The notes under the pieces are model-generated. The model ran no database searches and was not told the DNA's origin. It saw only the letters and a list, made by a program, of their open reading frames with translations. Shown here in pieces: positions 3,011 through 45,890 of a stretch of DNA of 58,094 nucleotides. A program made the translations under genes and the position numbers. The stretch spans positions 1-58,094 of the forward strand of contig CAMLSF010000004.1 in assembly GCA_946482615.1 (NCBI GenBank), read 5' to 3'. The stretch comes from an uncultured Chromatiaceae bacterium (GTDB taxonomy: Bacteria; Pseudomonadota; Gammaproteobacteria; Enterobacterales; Alteromonadaceae). Positions within the stretch are counted from its first letter, which is position 1; every line of letters begins with the position of its first letter.

Positions 3011-5701
3011 TTAGAAATTAAAGCCTGCACGCACCCCGTAGTACCTTGGCATATTAAAACTGCCTTTCGGGAAGCCTTTGCCTGTGTTACTCCATTGCTG
3101 GACTATTTCATTGGTGGCGTTGCTGACAAAAAGTTCAGCAAACCAGGCCTGACCAACAGGCTCATACTTCAGTGAAGCATTGGCTATGGTATGAGCGTCT
3201 CTGCGATCGTCTATGTAAGCAACGGCTTCGTCAGACACTGCAAAGTCCATATCGTCTAAATGTCTGTCGACGTTCCAGATGGTATTGTAGGACTTATCTT
3301 TCCAACTTAAGTTAAACCAGCCGTGGATAAAACCGTAGCTGCCCAAATCAACACTATGGGTGTAACTTAAGTTGGCGGTGTATTTGGGCACCATAGCCAG
3401 CTGATTGCCTTTGAGGTTCGTGGTCAGCATTTCGTTTTCAGGATCAATCGACTCTTCATAAGACAGACCAAACAGATACTCAGGGTCGTAATCCCACTTG
3501 GTGATCCAGTCTTCAGTCACCTCGGCGTCCGTGTAAGTGACATAACCATTGATACGGCCACTTGGGTACGGTTTCCAGTCAAATTCCAGCTCTAAGCCTT
3601 TAATGGTTGAACCCGGTACGTTTTGGGTGTAGTAAGCCACCACCGGCATATTGCGGTAATCCAGCACAGGCTGACCGTTTTCATCCAGCACCGGGCTGCC
3701 ATCCGGGTTTTCGACCGGAGCCAGACGCTCCACAGTGCCAACAGAACCGACTGAGGCATACTGCATATCTGTGTAATCGGTATAGAAAAACACCGCCTGT
3801 AAGTTCAGTGAGTTATCTAACAAGCTGGTTTTTGTACCCAGCTCGTAGGTGACAACCTGTTCAGGATCAAACTGGGTTTCAATACGTTGAACCTGACCTG
3901 TTCTGTCATTAACCACTTCAAACACGTCACCTATACCACCGGCTTTAAAGCCTGAGGCCACATAACCATAAACCATAGTGTTCTCCGTCAGATCATAATC
4001 CAGACCTAAGCGGAAATCGTGGTTGCGCCAGCTGCCTTTGTTGTCATTGGCAAAAGACGATTTATAGATAGACGGATCTTCAAAGGCATTGGTTGGCAGA
4101 TCGGACAACACAGTACGGTTATACCAGCCCGGTGCACAACCATCGGCATTGGAACAACGTAAAGTACGGCCACCTTTGTCTTCTTTGGTTTCGTCACTGA
4201 AACGGTAACCTAAGGTCAGGTGCAGATCAGAAGTTAAGTTGTAGGTCGCCTGACCAAAAGCAGCCAAAGCGTCAGTAGAACGGTCGGGTTGATCCCAAAA
4301 CGCCTTGTCATCCATAGGGTTGTCGTAATAACCCACAGTAGAGGTTTTTTCATGGAACAGGTTAACGCCTGCGATCCAGACTAAATCTCCCAGCTCATCC
4401 GACTGCAATTGCAGCTCAGTGGAATATGAACGTGCGCCTGTGCCATCGAGGAAAAACATAGCGCCATCCCAGACATCCAGACCAGTCTCAATATCCTGAG
4501 CAGATTGGCGCTTCATATCTTCGTAGCCTGCCAACCAGACCAGATCTAACTCGTCGGTCAGTTCATAGTTTAAAGTGTTGCGCAGGTAAGTGATGTCCAG
4601 CTCCAGTTTACCCGGCACGTTCACCACGGCCTGATAGGTGTTGTCGCTTGGTAAAAAGTTGGAACAGTCGCCACCAAACTCTGTAGGTCTGCCACGTAAT
4701 TTTTCGCAGTTGACCATGTCGGTAGAGCCGGCACTGTCGTTTTTGTAGTACTGGAACACCGTATGGTTGGAGAAATTACCTGCAGCAGGTTCCCACAAGG
4801 TGCTAACGCGGAATGAGTGCTCATTGGCGTTATTGTAGAAATCGCTTTTATCCGCCGCAGTTAAAGCACGGATTTTTTGCGCTTCAGGATCTGTACCTGC
4901 CGCGTCTATCCACCAGTTTTCGCGCTGGGTTAAGGTTTGGCCTATGCCCTGATAGGAGCCTTCGGCAATAACCGGAGCATCCAGCACCCCAGCAGGCAGA
5001 TAACGGGTGTCGTATTGGTTTGGATCCCAATAGCCTTCGACATAAGAATCACGTTTTAAGCCTTTGCCGGAAAAACGCACGGCAAAATCATCGGACACCG
5101 CCAGGTTAAACATGCCGCCGACACTTTTGGCATTAAATTTCCCCATCTCGGTATTCAGATTACCAAAGCTGCTGCTCAGATCAGGCTTGGCCGTCAGTAC
5201 GTTAATGCTGCCGACTGTGGAGTTACGGCCAAACAAAGTACCTTGCGGACCACGTAAAGCTTCAACCCGCTCTACGTCGTACATCAACGCCAAAGCGCCC
5301 TGCATACGTGGCGAATAAATACCGTCCAGGTGCACACCTACAGCAGGGTCACCCAGTTCAGTAATGTTGGTGGAACGGATACCACGCATGGTAATGACAG
5401 GAGCCGCCTGCTCTGAGGAGACAGCAATATCCAGACCCGGCACTAAATTGGCGATATCCACCACATTATTTACGCCGCTTTGTTGCAGCTGGGCTTCACT
5501 CAGGGCTGAAATAGCCACAGGTGTTTCCATCAGTTTGGTTTTGCGTTTGGTGGCCGTAACTGAAATGACTTCAAGTTCAGTTTCATTGGCAACGGCCTGA
5601 GATTGAGTAGTTGCGGAATTCTTCACTTCCGCCTGCTGCGCCGCAGCAGAAAAAGCGCATGCCATCGCTATCGCAAGCGAAAGTGCGTTACGTTTATGCA
5701 T
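3011..5701 (-). CDS. TonB-dependent outer-membrane receptor, probably for beta-glucan oligosaccharides
   Basis: Outer-membrane active transporter of 896 residues. A signal peptide ends near SAAAQQ. A TonB-box-like segment (EVISVTA) follows at about residues 44-50, then the plug domain with TPVAISALS, the RGIRS segment and LRGPQGTLFGRN, then a 22-strand-type barrel ending in aromatic GFNF, the usual C-terminal outer-membrane signature. AGGGG about 7 bases before ATG supports the start. Substrate is inferred from the neighbours: the next two genes on the same strand encode secreted GH16 and GH3 beta-glucanases. It is the first gene of the cluster; the upstream region to 6440 shows no regulator, so a controlling gene may lie left of the window. 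Confidence 0.93.
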   Translation of the reverse strand: MHKRNALSLAIAMACAFSAAAQQAEVKNSATTQSQAVANETELEVISVTATKRKTKLMETPVAISALSEAQLQQSGVNNVVDIANLVPGLDIAVSSEQAAPVITMRGIRSTNITELGDPAVGVHLDGIYSPRMQGALALMYDVERVEALRGPQGTLFGRNSTVGSINVLTAKPDLSSSFGNLNTEMGKFNAKSVGGMFNLAVSDDFAVRFSGKGLKRDSYVEGYWDPNQYDTRYLPAGVLDAPVIAEGSYQGIGQTLTQRENWWIDAAGTDPEAQKIRALTAADKSDFYNNANEHSFRVSTLWEPAAGNFSNHTVFQYYKNDSAGSTDMVNCEKLRGRPTEFGGDCSNFLPSDNTYQAVVNVPGKLELDITYLRNTLNYELTDELDLVWLAGYEDMKRQSAQDIETGLDVWDGAMFFLDGTGARSYSTELQLQSDELGDLVWIAGVNLFHEKTSTVGYYDNPMDDKAFWDQPDRSTDALAAFGQATYNLTSDLHLTLGYRFSDETKEDKGGRTLRCSNADGCAPGWYNRTVLSDLPTNAFEDPSIYKSSFANDNKGSWRNHDFRLGLDYDLTENTMVYGYVASGFKAGGIGDVFEVVNDRTGQVQRIETQFDPEQVVTYELGTKTSLLDNSLNLQAVFFYTDYTDMQYASVGSVGTVERLAPVENPDGSPVLDENGQPVLDYRNMPVVAYYTQNVPGSTIKGLELEFDWKPYPSGRINGYVTYTDAEVTEDWITKWDYDPEYLFGLSYEESIDPENEMLTTNLKGNQLAMVPKYTANLSYTHSVDLGSYGFIHGWFNLSWKDKSYNTIWNVDRHLDDMDFAVSDEAVAYIDDRRDAHTIANASLKYEPVGQAWFAELFVSNATNEIVQQWSNTGKGFPKGSFNMPRYYGVRAGFNF

Positions 5702-6440
5702 TATCTAACCCCTGTCTGTAGTTTTTTGCTTTTGTTTTTATGGCAAACAAAACAGCTGGGTTTGCCACAGTCCTAACCTTAATGGCAGCGAAAAGCCAGA
5801 GAAACAGAGATTCGACAAGGCGAGTTGGTCACACTACAACACGATTCAGGTGAGGTTGTTGGCCTTGTAGCGAAAAATAATTTTTATTCTTGATGTGGAT
5901 AAAGCTGCAGCACAGCAGAACCTTTCGCAGGGGTACCCATTTTTTGATGGATTATTTCTCAACTTTTGGCAGTGACTATGAGTTGTAATTGCATCCGGGG
6001 TTGATTCAGTTGTATAGCCATAATTCACGCAGGCAGGCCTAATTTCCTCCTCGTTAGTCAGCCGAGCTTATCCTCTCACTATCCCTGTAAAAGACGGTCG
6101 GCTTAAAACTATACCCATACTCGCTTTAATACAGGTCAGTGCCAATTGCGGGCATTCGGTGGTGTAGTAAATGCCATTCATCACCCCCTTAATTGGCCCA
6201 AACCGTCGGTTAAATTCCCATGTAACCAGCTTGAGTAAATTGAAAAACAACTAGTGTAGTGCCGGTATAAATATTGTCGGACTCAAATTTACTGATTTCA
6301 GAAAAACCTGTTGAAATAGAGGTACATCAGCGTTAGTTTGGCATGAGTAAAAATCAGGAAAGAAGGTAAAAAATGTTCGACTGGCGGGCAGAAAGCCTTC
6401 TATTAAAAAGTTATGCGTGACACTAGTATCATTGTGATAT
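5702..6440. other. 740-base stretch without a convincing gene
   Basis: This stretch lies between the TonB receptor start and the first cassette gene. Minus-strand frames of 60-74 codons (5846-6028, 6068-6250, 6251-6475) exist, but none has a good ribosome site or a recognisable motif. An imperfect inverted repeat (GCCGA near 6060, TCGGC near 6100) is visible. The left part should hold the promoter of the receptor gene, but no clear -35/-10 pair could be chosen. The right end contains GCGTTAGTT at 6330-6338, which may be the right end of a first attC site. Confidence 0.5.
6248..6338 (+). repeat. possible degenerate attC site at left end of cassette array
   Basis: GTTAGTT at 6332-6338, preceded by GC, resembles the right (R') core of an attC site. 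A left arm beginning AACTAGTGTAG near 6249 shares AACTA with the reverse complement of the right arm. Pairing beyond that is poor, so this is a weak call. Confidence 0.25.
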
Positions 6441-6650
6441 TTGGAGCGGCCTATCTTGATCGAGTTTTTTGGCAAATTATTTGGTTTTTGGATGTTTGTT
6501 TTCAGTGAAACGCATAGGGAAATTTGGTTATTCGAGTTTCAGCGCGCCAACTTATTCTTTAAGTGCATTCATATCTTGGAGTCTATTGTTTCAATAGTCG
6601 TTGGTGTTGGGGCTCCAGTACTTTTCGCATATATGCTGATAACATGGTGA
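6441..6650 (+). CDS. cassette 1: small membrane protein, unknown function
   Basis: A 69-residue frame starting with TTG at 6441, just after an in-frame TGA at 6435. An internal ATG at 6492 is the alternative start. The N-terminal half is rich in Phe/Trp (FGKLFGFWMFVF) and the C-terminus is one hydrophobic segment (SIVVGVGAPVLFAYMLITW), so a membrane location is likely. The stop codon is 10 bases before an attC-like site, the normal place for an integron cassette gene. No ribosome site of normal strength is visible, and the in-frame TGA at 6435 could mean the true N-terminus is lost. I do not recognise a family. Confidence 0.4.
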   Translation: MERPILIEFFGKLFGFWMFVFSETHREIWLFEFQRANLFFKCIHILESIVSIVVGVGAPVLFAYMLITW

Positions 6651-6658
6651 TCAAAATT

Positions 6659-6751
6659 GCATAACAAGCAAATATTAATCGCCCACGCTGCGCATGAGCT
6701 GCGACGGCAAAACGCATACGCGTTTTCCCGCGCTAAATTTGGTAGTTATGT
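6659..6751 (+). repeat. attC-like recombination site (after cassette 1)
   Basis: Begins GCATAACAAGC and ends GTAGTTATGT. The outer arms are complementary in the attC manner: ATAAC and CAAAT on the left match the reverse complement of the right end. The centre holds the perfect hairpin AAAACGC/GCGTTTT. The TAACAAGC start directly behind a stop codon is typical of cassette junctions. Confidence 0.65.
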
Positions 6752-6773
6752 TTTTATTGTGGAGTTTTGAGAT

Positions 6774-7025
6774 TTGGAAGAACTTATTAGTCGCATCATT
6801 TTTGGGTCTATTGCAGGAATTTTACTTGGATGTTGGCCATTAATTAGAGGTGTTAACGCCCAGCAAACAGTACTTGGTGTTGCAGGATTCTTTGCTAGTT
6901 TAATTTCAGGTGCAGTGCTTGGTCTTATCTTGGCAGTGCCAGTTGCTTGGTTGTTTGCTTTCTTAATCAACAAGAACTCTCAAGCCGCAAAAGTTGATGT
7001 GGATTCGAATGCAGAAAAAACATAG
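6774..7025 (+). CDS. cassette 2: small membrane protein, unknown function
   Basis: An 83-residue protein starting with TTG at 6774; GGAG lies about 10 bases upstream and no in-frame ATG gives a similar length. Two hydrophobic stretches are visible, about residues 8-27 (IIFGSIAGILLGCWPLI) and 33-66 (glycine- and alanine-rich), followed by a polar tail ending NAEKT. It probably sits in the inner membrane with a short soluble C-terminus. It lies on the plus strand between two attC-like sites, 22 bases after the first and ending inside the start of the second, as expected for a cassette gene. No family recognised. Confidence 0.6.
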   Translation: MEELISRIIFGSIAGILLGCWPLIRGVNAQQTVLGVAGFFASLISGAVLGLILAVPVAWLFAFLINKNSQAAKVDVDSNAEKT

Positions 7026-7106
7026 CAAGGCGCATCACTCGCAGCCTGCAGCTGCAGTGACGTCAAACGCTAACGCGTTTTGCCGCCCGTGTGCTTTGCG
7101 TTAGCT
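7020..7106 (+). repeat. attC-like recombination site (after cassette 2)
   Basis: Starts with the stop region of cassette 2 and AGCAAGGCGCATCAC, and ends TTTGCGTTAGCT. The right core GTTAGCT at 7100-7106 is close to the attC consensus. The left arm GCGCATCAC matches the reverse complement of the right arm (GCAAAGCACAC) imperfectly. The inner part holds CTGCAGCTGCAG and an AACGC/GCGTT repeat. Confidence 0.65.
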
Positions 7107-7168
7107 CTTCCGTTGGAAGTATTATGAACTCTCGTTAAACCCTAAAAACTCGTTAAGGAAAACAGAAA

Positions 7169-7831
7169 GTGAAAAAAGTAGCAATATTGGTAACGTCATT
7201 TACAATTTTGTCTGGTTGCGTGAGTACTAAAAATCTACAAATTAGTCAGCAAACTCTCAAACAACTAAATCCAAATAATGTGGCATTAACTACAAGAGAA
7301 AAACCAAACTTTTCAGCAATAACTGCTGGTAAAGCTATGTTTGCTTTAGTTGGTGCAGCCGCAATGATTGCTGCTGGAAATGAAATTGTAGAAAAAAATA
7401 ATATTGAAGATCCGGCGAGTTATATTCAATCTGAACTTGCTAAAGAGTTAAGTAAAAGTTATGGCTTTACAATAAACGAAACAAATTCGAAATCAGTAAA
7501 AACCAGTAATGGAGCTGAAATAGCTAAGGATTTTCCAGAATCAGACTTGGTTCTTGATGTAGAAACAATAAATTGGAGCTTTGCTTACTTCCCGACTGAT
7601 TGGGACAATTATCGTGTTATTTATAGTGCAAAACTAAGACTGATTGATACAAAATCTAAAAGCATTATCGCCGAAGGATTTTGTGCAAGAGTGCCAGAAG
7701 AAGGAGAAACAGCCCCGTCTCATGAAGAATTGCTTGCTAATAAAGCTGAACGATTAAAACAGGAACTAAAAATAGCAGCAAGTAATTGCATTGGTGAATT
7801 TAAAAATAAAGTACTAAGTATCCAGAGCTAA
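7169..7831 (+). CDS. cassette 3: lipoprotein, unknown function
   Basis: A 220-residue predicted lipoprotein. GTG at 7169 follows AAGGAA by about 8 bases. The signal peptide ends in the lipobox LSGC, with Cys17 as the lipidated residue. A hydrophobic stretch near residues 60-76 (AMFALVGAAAMIAAG) may be a second membrane-associated helix. The rest is soluble, with a segment DLVLDVETINWSF that resembles a beta-rich periplasmic domain. Base composition is AT-rich compared with the flanking core genes, a sign of separate origin. Its stop codon forms the left core of the next attC-like site. No family recognised. Confidence 0.85.
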   Translation: MKKVAILVTSFTILSGCVSTKNLQISQQTLKQLNPNNVALTTREKPNFSAITAGKAMFALVGAAAMIAAGNEIVEKNNIEDPASYIQSELAKELSKSYGFTINETNSKSVKTSNGAEIAKDFPESDLVLDVETINWSFAYFPTDWDNYRVIYSAKLRLIDTKSKSIIAEGFCARVPEEGETAPSHEELLANKAERLKQELKIAASNCIGEFKNKVLSIQS

Positions 7832-7928
7832 CAAAGCTTTTAACCGGATTCCGCTTACTGTCGCGGTTTTTGCAAACAGGCGCAAAAACTAGTGCCAGTA
7901 AGATCCACCGATGAATGCGGCGTTATAA
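7826..7928 (+). repeat. attC-like recombination site (after cassette 3)
   Basis: Left end AGCTAACAAAGC overlaps the stop codon of cassette 3, and the right end is GCGGCGTTATAA. The arms carry the perfect inverted repeat CTTACTG (near 7855) and CAGTAAG (near 7897). GGTTTTTGC/GCAAAAAC pairs closer to the centre. Confidence 0.7.
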
Positions 7929-7942
7929 GGAAAGGAATATTC

Positions 7943-8395
7943 GTGCGTAAGATATTTGTTGGGTTAGCGATCGCCGCATTCCTCCAAGGGTGCGTTGCGA
8001 TGGGAAATAAATACAGCGGGTACCAGCCGATTTCTCCTGGAAACGCTGTCTTGTACCTTTATAGACAGTCAAAATTTGATAGCAAGGCTTATTGTCCCGA
8101 CATTGTTGTTGATGGGAAGACCCAATTTTGTTTAAAAGATGGCGGGTTCGCTATATTTGAGTTGCCAGCTGGAAGACACGTCGTCCTTTTGAAGAAAAGT
8201 ATAATGGACTCAAGTGAAGACGTATCCTTCGGAATTGATATGGTGGAAGGTAAGCGCTACTTCATGGAGTATGTTCCACAGACATCAACAAGCAGTTTTG
8301 GTTCTTCTACTTCATACAGCTACAGTGATTATATTTATAGTAGGGATGAAGATTATTCAAAAGACGTACTTCGAGATCTCAGAAATTCACTATAA
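7943..8395 (+). CDS. cassette 4: DUF2846-type lipoprotein
   Basis: A 150-residue lipoprotein resembling DUF2846 proteins, which are small exported proteins of unknown function common in Proteobacteria. I chose GTG at 7943 because AAGGAAAGGAA lies just upstream and a signal peptide starts there (RKIFVGLAIAAFL) with lipobox LQGC. A longer frame from 7892 would put attC sequence in the protein. The body has the family's pattern: a first strand AVLYLYR, a middle FELPAGRHVVLL and the segment GKRYFMEYV. The tail is rich in Ser and Tyr. The RBS lies directly behind the right core of the preceding attC-like site. Confidence 0.85.
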   Translation: MRKIFVGLAIAAFLQGCVAMGNKYSGYQPISPGNAVLYLYRQSKFDSKAYCPDIVVDGKTQFCLKDGGFAIFELPAGRHVVLLKKSIMDSSEDVSFGIDMVEGKRYFMEYVPQTSTSSFGSSTSYSYSDYIYSRDEDYSKDVLRDLRNSL

Positions 8396-8482
8396 CAAGT
8401 TGCTTAATTTCGTTCCGGTCATAAACAGCATGGCCTACGCTGCGCTGCGGCAGCCCATTATCAAAGCGTTCGTGCTTTAGGA
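8390..8482 (+). repeat. attC-like recombination site (after cassette 4)
   Basis: Left end CTATAACAAGTTGC overlaps the stop codon of cassette 4; the right end is CGTGCTTTAGG. The right core has CTT where GTT is expected, so it is slightly degenerate. The centre has an imperfect GC-rich hairpin (TGCGCTGCGGCA). Confidence 0.6.
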
Positions 8483-8488
8483 GCATTT

Positions 8489-8704
8489 ATGAGAAATAAA
8501 ATATTTGGTGCCATCGGCGTGATATGGGGCGGAGCTATTTTAGTTAATGGTCTGTTCGGGCAATCTTCGTAAGGTTCTGATGCATACCAGGCGGGGCAGT
8601 CAGGCGCTCTAATATTTGGCGGGATATTGTTAGTGGCAGGTATATATTATTTTTTTGAAAAACCAAAAGTAAAAGCGGAAAAGGTCGCAAGTGAGTCGCT
8701 CTAA
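8489..8704 (+). pseudogene. cassette 5: small membrane protein gene broken by an in-frame TAA
   Basis: ATG at 8489 follows AGGAGC by about 4 bases. The frame reads 27 residues to TAA at 8570-8572, then stays open for 43 more codons to TAA at 8702-8704, exactly where the next attC-like site begins. The first part has one hydrophobic helix (IFGAIGVIWGGAILVNGLFG). The second has the typical continuation of such proteins, a YQAGQSGALIFGG segment and a second hydrophobic helix before FFEKPKVK. The single stop thus splits what looks like one 71-residue two-helix membrane protein. A sequencing error is the main alternative. Confidence 0.65.
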
Positions 8705-8782
8705 CAAGGCGCATCACACACAATCTTCGACCAATTGAACCTAAAACGCCAACAGGCTTTTCCGCCCTGCTCTGCCCTAGTT
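8699..8782 (+). repeat. degenerate attC-like site (after cassette 5)
   Basis: The left end CTCTAACAAGGCGCATCAC is nearly the same as the left end of the site at 7020. The right end is unclear; CCCTAGTTGC at 8773-8782 is the best candidate. The arms pair only weakly. Confidence 0.45.
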
Positions 8783-8805
8783 GCAATCGACTATAAGGGA
8801 ACGTA

Positions 8806-9099
8806 GTGAGTACAGAGTAAGTTATATTTAGTTTGCACTCGGTAATCTAGTTGGCTGCACTTCTGGGCTTTTGTTCGGGAGTTATTTTTGGTTTACTTTT
8901 TCTGGGGCTGAGCCTTTATCCAGATGAGAGTCTAAACAAGCCGCCAGTTATTTTTGCATTACTAAGCCCAGTGGTATCAACTGCAACTTTTGCTTTACAT
9001 TCAATGTTGGCTTACCCGCTTTTTTATTGGATAAGCAATACATTAGGAGGGATTCAAGTTGAATATTCAAACATTGCCGCCAACAAGGCGCAACATTAG
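8806..9099 (+). pseudogene. cassette 6: membrane protein gene with two early in-frame stops (or a TTG-start gene at 8851)
   Basis: A strong ribosome site (AAGGGAA) precedes GTG at 8806, but the frame meets TAA at 8818 and TAG at 8848. It then stays open from TTG at 8851 to 9099, 82 codons, with two hydrophobic segments (LLGFCSGVIFGLLFLGLSL and ATFALHSMLAYPLFYW). The codons between GTG and TTG are also hydrophobic (VIFSLHSVI), as if they belonged to the first helix. The simplest reading is a protein of about 97 residues damaged by two single-base changes. The alternative is a working gene starting at TTG 8851, which has no ribosome site. The last codons run into the following attC-like site. 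Confidence 0.5.
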
Positions 9100-9156
9100 C
9101 GGCCTGCTGCAACGAGAGCTCACTGTGTTTCGCGCGCGTGCGCTTAATAGTTATAG
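9078..9156 (+). repeat. attC-like recombination site (after cassette 6)
   Basis: Left end CGCCAACAAGGCGCAACATT, right end GCGCTTAATAGTTATAG. The left arm AAGGCGCA pairs with the right arm TGCGCTT. The centre is GC-rich, with CGCGCGCG. The site sits between the end of cassette 6 and the ribosome site of cassette 7. Confidence 0.7.
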
Positions 9157-9163
9157 GAATAAA

Positions 9164-9691
9164 ATGAAAACTGCCTCTTTAATAATATCAATACTTATTG
9201 TTTCCTCTGCATGTATTGCGGACGAAATTAATGTTCAAGGAGGGCAATTCAAGCGAGTGTCCTTAGGACAAAATGAACAAACTCTACGCTCAATGAAATG
9301 TGAGTTTGAAATCCTCGAAGAATATAGAGATACAGATTGGGGGCCGGTAATAACGCTCGGCCTAGCTGATTCAGAGGACAACGAGTTTATTCAAATCCTG
9401 TACACAACTACAAAAAAGGACAAATATTATCTATTCAAAACTAAAAATGGATCTGTAAAAAACGGAGATATAGACTCACATTTTTTATCCCTACCAATAA
9501 CTTACGGAGCAAAGGTGTCTCTTTCTATCGTACCTTGGGATGAAAATGGCGGTACCTTTGATTACAGAGCTCAAGTCGGTGAGAGTATTAAAGCGAGTGG
9601 CTACATAATCAATCCATATTTGCGTAGTGGTCTTAACTATTCAATTACTTTTTCATCGGTCCGCGCCAAGTATGCATGTAGCGTCCGCTAA
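9164..9691 (+). CDS. cassette 7: exported protein, unknown function
   Basis: A 175-residue exported protein. I chose ATG at 9164 because AGGAA lies just upstream and a signal peptide begins there (KTASLIISILIVSSA), with likely cleavage before DEINVQ. Starting at 9059 would translate the attC-like site. The mature part is beta-strand rich, with segments WGPVITLGLAD and FIQILYTT, like a small jelly-roll or lectin-like fold, but no family is recognised. Two Cys residues in the mature region, near the start (SMKCEF) and near the end (KYACSV), could form a disulfide. The stop codon overlaps the left core of the next attC-like site. Confidence 0.82.
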   Translation: MKTASLIISILIVSSACIADEINVQGGQFKRVSLGQNEQTLRSMKCEFEILEEYRDTDWGPVITLGLADSEDNEFIQILYTTTKKDKYYLFKTKNGSVKNGDIDSHFLSLPITYGAKVSLSIVPWDENGGTFDYRAQVGESIKASGYIINPYLRSGLNYSITFSSVRAKYACSVR

Positions 9692-9760
9692 CAAGCCGTG
9701 CCAATTGCCGCCTTCGGGGACGGCTACGCTCACAGTTTCGCGTGCTTGCGCTGGTTATCA
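9686..9760 (+). repeat. attC-like recombination site (after cassette 7)
   Basis: Left end CGCTAACAAGCCGTGCC, right end TTGCGCTGGTTATCA. A strong central hairpin GCCGCC/GGGACGGC with a TTCG loop lies at about 9709-9724. The outer arms pair as AAC-AGC with GCTGGTT. This is one of the clearest sites in the array. Confidence 0.75.
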
Positions 9761-9769
9761 GGCATCACA

Positions 9770-10471
9770 ATGAACTTAGATGAGTTAGTAAACTCAGTGC
9801 CTGAAACCAATCTTAGAGAAAATCTCTCTCGCTGGGTTGAAGAGTGGAAGCAAGATGATAAAGATATCGAGAAACTCGCAAATCTAATTGGCAAATGGCA
9901 GGGAAATGTTTGGTTTCAAGATATGGATGCTTCAAACAAGTTCCACTCTGAATTTCAAAGTTTCAAAAGTGCAGCAATAGATAATATTGGCGACTTAACA
10001 TTAAACGAACGGCTCTACTTGTTTGGACTTTTTGAGCTTTGGGATAGCAGCAATGAAACTACACGTAATCGCTTGCGTAGCAAACTCCATGCAAAAGCTG
10101 TTGTCGCCGCTAGCACGGCTTGGCTGGCTTATGTCGCGCTCCGGCGGACCCGAAGCTCTGCGTTAGGTGTTTCAATGTCGCACAATCTTGATGAACTTCT
10201 TGCACAAGTAAAAGATGAAAAAACTTTCATCGAGTTCGTGCAGGCGCTAGCGGCAGATTTCGCGGAAGAGAGGGAGCTTAAGTTGTCTAAGTCAGGCTCG
10301 CCTTATTCCTCTGGATCGCTTGGCTGGGAAAATGGTTCAATTGACACCATGCTGGGAGGTGCTGCCGCGTGGGGATATTCAACCGCCATGGATCCCTCAA
10401 ACAAAACTTCCGAACAGAATCCATGGTATAGGTTTGCTCATATTCTATACGCTGGAAAATTCTATGAGTAA
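9770..10471 (+). CDS. cassettes 8 and 9 joined in one frame: fusion protein of 233 residues
   Basis: One frame of 233 residues covers two cassettes. ATG at 9770 lies 10 bases after the preceding attC-like site. Residues 1-110 are an acidic, helical protein (MNLDELVNSVPETN; INERLYLFGLFELWD-like segment) of a type seen in integron cassettes, function unknown. No stop follows. The frame passes through an attC-like site (residues about 104-133: Ala/Arg-rich, with STAWLAYVALRRTRSS) into a second protein starting at Met136 (ATG 10175), which is DUF7660-like. Either the stop of cassette 8 was lost by recombination or mutation, giving a fusion, or the first gene ends by an unseen event and the second starts on its own. 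Confidence 0.7.
   Translation: MNLDELVNSVPETNLRENLSRWVEEWKQDDKDIEKLANLIGKWQGNVWFQDMDASNKFHSEFQSFKSAAIDNIGDLTLNERLYLFGLFELWDSSNETTRNRLRSKLHAKAVVAASTAWLAYVALRRTRSSALGVSMSHNLDELLAQVKDEKTFIEFVQALAADFAEERELKLSKSGSPYSSGSLGWENGSIDTMLGGAAAWGYSTAMDPSNKTSEQNPWYRFAHILYAGKFYE
10079..10168 (+). repeat. attC-like site inside the fused frame of cassettes 8 and 9
   Basis: The right end CTCTGCGTTAGGT has a perfect right core, GTTAGGT, at 10162-10168. The left end is unclear (AGCAAAC at 10079-10085 is the best match to the left core). Inner pairing includes GCTCCGG/CCGAAGC-type segments. The whole element is translated in frame with the flanking cassettes. Confidence 0.6.
10175..10471 (+). CDS. cassette 9: DUF7660-like protein (own start inside the fusion)
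   Basis: A 98-residue protein that would result if translation starts at ATG 10175, 6 bases after the right core of the attC-like site. It is acidic, with the conserved features of a small family common in cassettes and toxin-neighbour regions (DUF7660): an N-terminal helix with FIEFVQALAADF, the segment GWENGSID and a C-terminus NPWYRFAHILYAGKFYE. Function is unknown. GTTAGGTG just upstream is only a weak ribosome site, so expression may depend on read-through from cassette 8 (see the fused frame, 9770-10471). It ends about 50 bases before the last attC-like fragment. Confidence 0.6.
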   Translation: MSHNLDELLAQVKDEKTFIEFVQALAADFAEERELKLSKSGSPYSSGSLGWENGSIDTMLGGAAAWGYSTAMDPSNKTSEQNPWYRFAHILYAGKFYE

Positions 10472-10520
10472 AACGAAGCCGTCTGAGGTCTTCAAGTTCA
10501 CTTCGGTCCTATGGGTCTCC

Positions 10521-10555
10521 GTATAACAAGCACTCCAGATTCAGTGCAGATAACA
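10521..10555 (+). repeat. attC-like fragment at right end of cassette array
   Basis: GTATAACAAGC at 10521-10531 resembles the left core and arm of the other sites. It is followed by the hairpin GCACT/AGTGC (10530-10547) and GATAACAAAAGG, but no right core is present. It may be a remnant or a recombined end marking the right edge of the array. Confidence 0.4.
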
Positions 10556-10568
10556 AAAGGAATTGAAC

Positions 10569-12449
10569 ATGCGCATAAACGGAAACTTAGTAAAACTGTG
10601 TTGGCAAGTCGCCTTATATTCGGTCACCAATCTTTGTCTGTCCGTTAATTTGTATGCCTCTGCAGCAGATTGCGATACAGTAGATAGCTGCTATCAGCGG
10701 ATTTTACTGCATGCTGATCGGGAACGGGGCATGGGCCAATATGCCAACGACACAGATCGGGTCATGATTGATCGACTGGTCAGTTTTGGTGATCCGGCAC
10801 TCCCATTATTATTTCAGTTATTGGCTGATAGTAACGAAGGTTTGGCCAGTCTCGCGGCGCAAGGGCTGGCCAAAAGCCCCTCCCTTGATGCAACTTACTT
10901 ACCTCAATTGCAGCAGGCATATGCCAGAGGTAATGGCACAGTAGTCTACGCTATTGCCAAAATCGAGCATCCAACCGTGGCTCCCATGCTCGTCGACGCT
11001 TATTTAACGGCAAGCTCAAGCCCATCAAACCAGGAAGCTGTTGCGCTAAAAACAGTTCAACGCCAGGCTGTCCCTTTGCTATTAGAAGCAGCAGCTTGTC
11101 AGTCCGACTGTTCTGATAAAACCTTTTATTTGATTTATCATGCAACCGAAACCTTTGCGCCAGAGCAGCAACAGCTGATGATTGATGGCCTGCTGGATTT
11201 AGCAGTTAATCCTGCTCTGCCCATACAGGTGCGGGAGGAGGCTATTTCCACTATCGCCCGTCTGGTGAAAAAGGTTGATTACGTGCGTTCACAACAAAGT
11301 CGTATTGTCAGTTTGTGCCAGGACGACCTTGATTTGGCCCGCAGTTGTGACTATGCCTTGGTTGAACTCCAGGTGAAAGGCACATGGAAAACACTGGTAA
11401 AGAAGTTAAAGCAGGCAAAACAAAATCCGATTTATGCATGGGGATTGCTTGATCAACTCAGTGCATTTGGCGTAGAAGCACAAGCCGCTGCCCCTGTGGT
11501 CGAAGATTTATTAGCATCAGACGATGACTATCTGCGAGCGGTAGCCGCTGAAACCTTAGTCGCCATCAACCCTGACTATGCTATTCCTGTGCTGTTGAAA
11601 CACATGCACAACCCCACTGATGCAAAACTCAGTTATTTGATTGCGCTACAACTCGGAGATTGGCCTGGAACGGAAGTAAAACAGGCATTAGAGCGAGTTG
11701 CCAGCAGCTATTGGTACCCACCGGTGCGTGCGGCAGCAGAAAAGTCACTACAAAAACTGGCAAAGCCAGCCAAACCAGCGGTGCAGCAAACCGTACGCAA
11801 CGCCCATAGATTTGACGAAGAAGACTTGCAGGCTGTGAGGTGTGAGCTAGCCCCCTTGCAAAAAATAACTGAACCCAAAAAACATAAACTTTACCAGGAG
11901 CAAGATGAAAAGCAGCTCTCCGCACTTACTTATTGGTTACCCAACTCGCAGTTTCAAAGCGATGCAGAAGCCAGTGAAGATGCGTCGTTAATACTGCAGC
12001 AACTTGATAAATGGTCACAGAATCCAAAGCGTATAGAGTATTTGCCTAACCTCGCTCTTCGTGTAGCGGACGGTTGGTTAACTGGCCGGCAGAAAGGGGA
12101 ATGGGGTGGCGAATTGATGTATATATCAGACTCTGGCGTTAAGCAGCTTGTGGTCAGCGACAATATTGAAGATATTTATCAACTGGGCGAGCAGTGGATC
12201 GCCACAGCTGGCTTAGCGCATTTAAGCGGCGACTATGGCCGGATTTATCGACTCAAGCGGCTCAACGCGAACTCAGCTGCAAGCAACAACAAAGAATTCA
12301 GAGCGGATATCTGGCTGGAACTTCCCAGTGCGGTGAAAAGCTCCTGGTGGGTTGAAGGGGGTGAACTACTGCTTAATACCAATAAAGGCAGTATGTTGCT
12401 GTCGGCGGATGGCAGCCTGCGGATGGCGCCTTGTCGTGAGTTGAATTAA
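10569..12449 (+). CDS. exported HEAT-repeat protein
   Basis: A 626-residue exported protein. ATG at 10569 follows AAAGGAA by 7 bases. A hydrophobic signal segment (VALYSVTNLCLSVNLYASAA) precedes a mature part starting with two Cys (DCDTVDSCYQ). From about residue 60 to 400 it is a series of short paired helices with HEAT-like signatures (VSFGDPALPLLFQLLAD, LASDDDYLRAVAAETL). The C-terminal 200 residues are beta-rich (ISDSGVKQLVVSDNIEDIY, LLLNTNKGSMLLSADG), like part of a propeller. HEAT arrays usually bind partner proteins; the partner is unknown. Codon use and composition are those of the core genome, so it lies outside the cassette array. Confidence 0.85.
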   Translation: MRINGNLVKLCWQVALYSVTNLCLSVNLYASAADCDTVDSCYQRILLHADRERGMGQYANDTDRVMIDRLVSFGDPALPLLFQLLADSNEGLASLAAQGLAKSPSLDATYLPQLQQAYARGNGTVVYAIAKIEHPTVAPMLVDAYLTASSSPSNQEAVALKTVQRQAVPLLLEAAACQSDCSDKTFYLIYHATETFAPEQQQLMIDGLLDLAVNPALPIQVREEAISTIARLVKKVDYVRSQQSRIVSLCQDDLDLARSCDYALVELQVKGTWKTLVKKLKQAKQNPIYAWGLLDQLSAFGVEAQAAAPVVEDLLASDDDYLRAVAAETLVAINPDYAIPVLLKHMHNPTDAKLSYLIALQLGDWPGTEVKQALERVASSYWYPPVRAAAEKSLQKLAKPAKPAVQQTVRNAHRFDEEDLQAVRCELAPLQKITEPKKHKLYQEQDEKQLSALTYWLPNSQFQSDAEASEDASLILQQLDKWSQNPKRIEYLPNLALRVADGWLTGRQKGEWGGELMYISDSGVKQLVVSDNIEDIYQLGEQWIATAGLAHLSGDYGRIYRLKRLNANSAASNNKEFRADIWLELPSAVKSSWWVEGGELLLNTNKGSMLLSADGSLRMAPCRELN

Positions 12450-45613: not shown

Positions 45614-45639
45614 TTGCTGCTCTGCTACACTGCGCTGGT

Positions 45640-45778
45640 TTTGTCAAAGGTGTTCTGCATAAGCCTTAAGCTAATGCAATGAACTGAAAAGGGAAACAGG
45701 TGTAAATCCTGTACTGTACCCGCAACTGTAAGCCACTCTGAACAGAGTATGGCAAGTCAGATGTCCTGCCTTTACAAA
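45640..45778 (+). ncRNA. cobalamin riboswitch
   Basis: Conserved B12-box elements are present: AAAAGGGAA at 45687-45695, the CAGGTG-AAATCCTG hairpin, ACTGTACCCGCAACTG near 45712-45728, and CAAGTCAGATGTCCTGCC near 45754-45770. The outer stem is TTTGT-AAAGG (45640-45650) with CCTTTACAAA (45769-45778). Downstream, a CACAGTG/CACTGTG hairpin (45806-45827) and a GCGGTTTTTTACCGC element (45838-45852) could serve as expression platform. It should turn the downstream B12 genes off when adenosylcobalamin is plentiful. Confidence 0.93.
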
Positions 45779-45890
45779 CCTCAGGCGTTGCAAGCTGTTG
45801 CAGCACACAGTGCGGGCTTACACTGTGCCGGAACTCTGCGGTTTTTTACCGCTTTTCCTGGTCCCTGCCCGTTATTTTATGGAGCTTTTT

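Follow-up and report, generated by a model that had tools for sequence, protein, structure and literature searches.

In contig CAMLSF010000004.1 of an uncultured Chromatiaceae bacterium (the window, meaning the whole stretch of 58,094 nucleotides that was analysed), nine small plus-strand genes or gene remnants are separated by spacers resembling attC sites, in the layout of an integron cassette array, and no gene for an integron integrase (intI) is in view. This raises the question of how an array of this kind arises and by what means it could be filled. Comparison with the genomes of Rheinheimera and kin indicates that the array begins at an attI region of its own, related copies of which are dispersed over many chromosomes, and it is probable that lone attI heads, that of the window included, are filled by an integrase (IntI) acting in trans.

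The array is headed by an attI region

Window positions 6227-6414 are 83% identical (blastn) to the DNA that separates intI from the first cassette in the integron of Rheinheimera sp. A13L (locus L002; loci are given L numbers and genomes G numbers), and the match stops at the GTTAT core. Given that this homology ends at the core, the window array has its own attI. In a conservation profile of 55 copies, including those of the window and a plasmid and leaving out ten decayed copies, the mean in 10-column steps lies at 0.75-0.96 over 6233-6412 and then falls to 0.46 and 0.21. This attI region of about 180 base pairs (bp), immediately left of the array, was overlooked in an earlier reading of the sequence alone (the sequence-only reading), and the interval needs to be extended leftward to 6139, given that the attI region lies there. 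A scan of the attI region for a cassette promoter (Pc) returned one consensus-like site against 0.9 expected by chance. The last 20 bp or so before the core (window 6393-6412, and the same part of other copies) exist in at least two sequence types, even at one site across genomes.

No intI was found in the window by tblastn with two IntI types (best expectation value, E, 0.85), that is, within 6.4 kilobases (kb) to the left and 51.7 kb to the right of the core, which is the extent of the window; the lack of an integrase claimed in the sequence-only reading is thereby borne out. Of the marks of a complete integron, attI at the head of the array is present and intI beside attI is absent, and the window array is an attI-headed cassette array without intI. 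Two origins had been proposed for it: a cluster of attC sites lacking an integron-integrase (CALIN, in IntegronFinder usage) or the far part of a larger integron. The working definition of the former fits, given attCs and no intI; the latter is unsupported, given that the array starts at its own attI.

Copies of attI are dispersed in Rheinheimera and kin

A search with the 282-bp attI region gave 103 matches in 17 of the 22 genomes of the genus of A13L, with up to 14 in one genome; among 196 genomes of the family, with four candidates per genome scored, seven hold an attI match at E<=1e-8, and six of these belong to the genus set. Sixty regions with 63 attI copies were fetched, the remaining, mostly shorter or weaker matches being left out. 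With a copy counted as intI-linked when intI lies within 2.5 kb of it, 10 copies are intI-linked and 53 are solo. Their left contexts, as judged by eye, fall into few classes, namely intI, a unit of about 90 bp (class B), a site at a glk-eda-like gene pair, and others; also by eye, a CTGT-N8-ACAG box, which we take to be a LexA-type motif, is seen at intI-linked copies and at most glk-eda copies. One pair of copies in G004 (L106 and L107) is 98.8% identical. The gene intI itself (E<=1e-40) is present in 18 of the 22 genomes and in none of G002, G013, G015 and G020. In G020, G002 and G013 the A13L IntI query gave only partial hits, of at most 38-52% identity and in frames of about 300 residues, which we read as XerC/D-like; G015 additionally holds a 63-residue fragment at 90% identity.

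The sites of attC were sought with a covariance model, R2, made of 80 attCs from genus loci and none from the window. Home-made attC scanners were rejected as noisy, the second giving 22 and 19 control hits on the two strands at a score of at least 10 in 45.6 kb. A strict form of the scanner found 56 sites and none in control DNA (both strands of window 12500-58094 and of L001); a first model, R1, was seeded with 15 of these sites, and R1 found the 80 sites of R2. Given that R2 was trained on genus loci, attC counts for the genus are partly built in, and the window and the Shewanella-type loci described below are independent of the training. At E up to 0.02, 30 of the 53 solo copies and 6 of the 10 intI-linked copies are followed within 2 kb by an attC on their own strand. 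At least 1 kb of downstream sequence is available for 46 solo copies, 27 of them with an attC, and for seven intI-linked copies. Those attCs that lie upstream of a copy or on the opposite strand belong to the array of another copy (L101, L105) or to a cluster about 10 kb away (L061).

The sites are fixed and the cassettes change

Comparison of left flanks identified ten shared sites with syntenic flanks: the intI site, present in 10 genomes, and nine solo sites, each shared by 2-9 genomes. Of the pairs compared, 44 of 45 at the intI site and 49 of 56 at the solo sites lose homology within 30 bp of the core; beyond attI, 55 of the 56 solo-site pairs have different DNA. Of the seven other solo pairs, six have a decayed or shortened attI (L108, L100, L061); the last, L091/L093, has a common IS91-family element directly behind the core and is the sole pair of the 56 that is similar at +30 to +400. 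Less than 500 bp of downstream sequence is available in L081, L091, L093 and L094. At the shared solo sites of the genus, attI and flanks are thus fixed and the cassettes differ; neither this pattern nor the dispersal of lone attI sites was anticipated in the sequence-only reading.

The richest solo site lies behind the glk-eda-like gene pair, named from translation, where attI is present in ten genomes (G001, G002, G004, G006, G009, G012, G014, G018, G020 and G021), decayed and without an array in G015, and missing in G003; at this site no attI was seen in seven more distant genomes (G005, G008, G013, G016, G017, G019 and G022). The first right-flank match follows at +1.43 kb in G002, +1.84 in G020, +3.70 in G006, +1.48 in G012 and +3.07 in G004, the right flank being unreached or unfound in the other five of the ten. 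Similarity over the 300 bp that follow the core is confined to G018 and G021, the pair with the IS91-family element. Cassettes are shared between intI-linked and solo arrays: in G004 the intI array (L107) opens with a 316-bp segment, attC included, that recurs at 100% identity in second place in the solo array (L106), and the opening 313 bp of L106 match the start of the G014 intI array (L083) at 94% identity. A cassette at another solo site, L063 of G020, matches window 9082-9717 at 92% identity.

Features of the window array

The features of the locus are given below (ORF, open reading frame).

3011..5701, minus strand: left flank, TonB-dependent-receptor-like gene (ORF, named from its translation); same neighbour in A13L and G020
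6139..6232, plus strand: left-hand portion of the class B attI unit, from copy alignments; in many lone copies and enterobacterial plasmids, absent at the A13L intI
6233..6412, plus strand: attI region, crossover G^TT between 6410 and 6411; 83% to the A13L intI-attI stretch; conserved over 55 copies, with a drop at 6413
6441..6650, plus strand: cassette 1 gene, 69 residues, TTG start, without family (ORF, Pfam/NCBIfam)
6659..6751, plus strand: attC 1, R2 E 4.9e-8; 93-97% to DNA of several genus loci
6774..7025, plus strand: cassette 2 gene, 83 residues, no family above cut-off (ORF, Pfam/NCBIfam)
7020..7106, plus strand: attC 2, TAGC replacing TAAC, R2 E 1.8e-4
7169..7831, plus strand: cassette 3 gene, 220 residues, lipoprotein-like start by eye (ORF, Pfam/NCBIfam)
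7826..7928, plus strand: attC 3, weak, R2 E 3; without blastn match to genus loci
7943..8395, plus strand: cassette 4 gene, DUF2846, 150 residues (Pfam 48.8 bits, cut-off 34.3)
8390..8474, plus strand: attC 4, R2 E 8e-5
8489..8704, plus strand: cassette 5 gene remnant with internal stop (sequence reading)
8699..8786, plus strand: attC 5, degenerate, 71% to L055; unscored by R2
8851..9099, plus strand: cassette 6 gene, 82 residues, no family above cut-off (ORF, Pfam/NCBIfam)
9078..9156, plus strand: attC 6, degenerate, at most 79% to genus loci; unscored by R2
9164..9691, plus strand: cassette 7 gene, 175 residues, without family (ORF, Pfam/NCBIfam)
9686..9760, plus strand: attC 7, R2 E 3.2e-4
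9770..10081, plus strand: cassette 8 gene, frame open into the cassette 9 gene and without a defined end (ORF)
10075..10168, plus strand: attC 8, degenerate, 78% to L106 and L107; unscored by R2
10175..10471, plus strand: cassette 9 gene, DUF7660, 98 residues (Pfam 37.8 bits, cut-off 27)
10521..10549 (element 10515-10560), plus strand: truncated terminal attC, the right end of the array; common to the syntenic G020 locus
10569..12449, plus strand: right flank, HEAT-repeat gene (Pfam HEAT_2); same neighbour in A13L and G020

The layout claimed in the sequence-only reading, of small plus-strand genes and attC-like spacers, is present, and a covariance-model check was run with R2 over all 58,094 bases on both strands with filters off. 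Four of the nine spacers score at E<1e-3, all on the plus strand, so that the array holds the at least two clustered attCs of one orientation by which a CALIN is recognised; outside the array there are four matches up to E 10, the best at E 0.57. Taken together, the spacers comprise four firm sites, one weak, three degenerate and one truncated, the degenerate ones (near 8696, 9080 and 10070) having 71-79% identity to genus-locus DNA by blastn. The loci that attC 1 matches at 93-97% include the intI-linked L096, L107 and L095. The claim that the genes are AT-rich relative to their surroundings also stands: the array has a G+C content of 41.6%, against 45.6% for the lowest of 83 windows of equal length in 12500-58094 and 48.0% for that stretch as a whole. 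Two cassette genes look damaged, the 8489 frame by its internal stop and the 9770 frame by reading into the next gene. Among the eight cassette proteins scanned, the 8489 remnant being left out, only DUF2846 and DUF7660 were above the Pfam cut-off and nothing was above that of NCBIfam; PADLOC gave no matches for eight window proteins and the plasmid cassette protein described below. Elsewhere in the window, a Cobalamin riboswitch (45631-45787, 59.5 bits) lies upstream of cobalamin-type transport and synthesis genes, named by eye.

The nearest relatives are G020 and A13L, with 88% and 77% identity in the HEAT protein respectively, and the organism of the window is accordingly taken to be probably a Rheinheimera or one of its close kin. 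The G020 site has the same neighbours and the same right end, and holds a 63-bp attI piece at 81% identity followed by about 1 kb of other DNA; the attI head probably predates the split of the window and G020 lineages. At the orthologous site of A13L there is neither attI nor attC, and a clean empty site for the window array was found in neither A13L nor G020, both having other DNA there. A further attC cluster in G020 lies about 8-12 kb from the site orthologous to that of the window (L121 16819-17866 and L061 206-1086), with no attI match nearby.

Occurrence of attI beyond the genus

The class B form occurs on 51 plasmid records at 80-90% identity (Escherichia 25, Klebsiella 12, Shigella 11 and Enterobacter 3). 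Among 5426 complete E. coli genomes 52 carry it, all but one at 80-90%, some records being in both collections. On plasmid L008, from E. coli, a class B attI is followed by a cassette that has an attC (4290-4349). The main cassette behind this attI encodes a hypothetical protein of 476 residues (L008 4386-5816), and at the corresponding position an E. coli chromosome (L134 6549-7979) carries a gene of equal length. As to how attI might spread, in G018 and G021 similar DNA begins at the core of both the intI-linked and the glk-eda attI (L089 and L091 in G018, L093 and L094 in G021), and in G018 an IS91-family transposase gene adjoining a tyrosine recombinase gene lies directly behind the attI core (L089 290-2211). 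It is possible that this shared IS91 DNA is an effect of assembly, given that three of the four contigs end there; a rolling-circle route for the spread of attI is speculation.

An unrelated attI, of Shewanella type, is present at up to 3 mismatches in 20 of 394 genomes of the order, with none in a backwards control. At least two copies, and up to 13, occur in 12 of the 20 genomes, and IntI (E<=1e-40) is found in 13 of them. Among 20 copies taken from three genomes, 19 have a downstream same-strand attC (E<0.01), within 2 kb at 16 and within 4 kb at the rest, and all 32 attC hits up to E 1 at these loci lie on the attI strand and on its downstream side. Two of the copies adjoin intI (L159, L166), and attC lies downstream at 17 of the 18 solo ones. 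In G427 the intI-linked attI and two solo ones share, directly after the core, a 328-bp segment at 100% identity, which is either a cassette or another repeat. Nearly the same segment of about 328 bp stands behind 9 of the 20 copies (L147, L149, L151, L153, L154 and L157-L160), and in L149 part of it is in tandem repeat.

Possible origins of the array

Sequence comparison shows that attI copies are dispersed, that attC arrays lie behind them, that their flanks are fixed, that similarity breaks near the crossover and that cassettes are shared. The likelier explanation is an integrase-less integron, in which a trans-acting IntI fills dispersed lone attI heads, that of the window among them. The window would then hold an attI region with nine cassettes, some decayed, and this attI would belong to a large set of copies scattered over the chromosomes of Rheinheimera and close kin. 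IntI encoded elsewhere in the cell would act in trans to insert and remove cassettes at the lone attI, using the G^TT point that it uses at an intI-adjacent attI. The attI heads would stay fixed between conserved genes as the cassettes turn over, and loss of intI from a lineage would leave its arrays to freeze and decay. We infer that the recombinase would be the genome's IntI in trans, that the window array would have been filled in this way and that IntI may be active in the window's organism today.

Several observations weigh against this explanation. No attC was scored within 2 kb at 23 of the 53 solo copies, and the counts of 30 of 53 and 6 of 10 rest on a model trained at the same genus loci. 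G020 (10 copies fetched) and G002 (5) hold arrays yet no intI, IntI being either lost or elsewhere. The G020 counterpart of the window locus (L061) loses homology at -47, away from the core, the attI there being decayed, and the shared pair L069/L074, outside the nine grouped sites, is homologous through the core and 98% identical to +1477, which looks like a decayed copy. Furthermore, no attraction of attI copies within a genome, such as continuing exchange of attI itself might produce, was seen: mean pair identity is 0.762 for pairs from the same genome and 0.762 for pairs from different genomes, with 519 of 1000 shuffles reaching the same-genome mean, and concerted evolution of the copies within a genome is unsupported.

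Given the weak attCs and broken genes in the window, the mere 63 bp of attI kept by the G020 counterpart and the absence of intI from G020 (one 4.64-Mb contig), it could be argued that the array is a dead remnant, that is, a formerly complete integron from which intI was deleted and in which attI and cassettes are frozen and decaying. However, this is unlikely: there is no trace of intI left of the window attI, positions 6139-6232 are common to many lone copies elsewhere and hence are not the product of a private deletion, and the differing DNA in 55 of 56 pairs was seen at sites that are solo in all genomes, indicating that arrays changed after becoming solo. The conserved block might instead be a promoter or leader repeat that moves with the array by transposition or homologous recombination, IntI being uninvolved at solo sites. 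The block is long and highly conserved, its defined left part is common to the copies and to enterobacterial plasmids, and an IS91-family element is present at the attI of two genomes, all of which would suit such a repeat; yet at shared sites the block is retained together with its left flank and change is confined to the DNA right of G^TT, as it is at intI-linked attI, and we regard a moving leader as distinctly improbable. Still harder to credit is an ordinary CALIN formed by insertion of cassettes at a secondary genomic (attG-type) site. The literature refers to such insertions, Loot reportedly having described them in 2024, and attCs without intI would be their outcome, but the array begins at a long attI homologue and not at a bare secondary site.

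There is also a wider reading, towards which we lean slightly: integrons may be distributed machines, in which one integrase serves many dispersed attI docking sites, each with a small changing array between conserved genes. The attI would behave like a small non-autonomous mobile element that has reached enterobacterial plasmids and chromosomes, the same arrangement would have arisen with a different attI in the Shewanella-type lineage, and a large number of CALINs may be branches of one system with attI at their heads. The usual view has one intI, one attI and one array, and takes integrase-less arrays for debris or off-target insertions; here there are many integrase-less arrays with a proper docking site, at fixed places and with cassettes that differ between species. 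If the wider reading is true, one integrase can vary gene content at many chromosomal points, each with its own context. According to the available text of PMC9024848, attI outside class 1 goes undetected by IntegronFinder; given that this tool detects attI only for class 1, attI-headed arrays such as those here would be unseen by it. Tools that seek intI and attC alone would miss such arrays, and the origin of CALINs would become testable through attI at their heads.

Relation to known systems

The window array is like a CALIN in its several attCs of one orientation with no intI nearby, and differs by its own attI head, a dispersed repeat conserved at its sites. The available part of PMC12444791 describes CALINs as mobilisable in trans by a functional IntI, and its Xanthomonas CALINs are integrase-less arrays at recurrent chromosomal places across species, as here; in that part no attI is described at the arrays, unlike here. 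The delta-attI cassettes of class 1 and class 2 integrons (PMC12901181, as far as its accessible text goes) likewise carry attI sequence outside its usual position, where IntI1 uses it, but there pieces of attI lie inside cassettes and here attI stands at the head of the array without being part of it. The accessible parts of the literature yielded no report of attI in multiple copies at conserved sites on the chromosome; they cover open-access papers only, and this is hence weak evidence of absence. The nearest precedent is the prophage case of PMC9892861, an integrase-less array headed by the attI of a complete integron; it is one prophage case, and in the text available chromosomal dispersal, conserved sites and turnover, as seen here, are undescribed. 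The sedentary chromosomal integron of Rheinheimera sp. A13L and kin has intI beside attI, which is absent in the window, and shares with the window array the same attI region, the same crossover and the same attC families.

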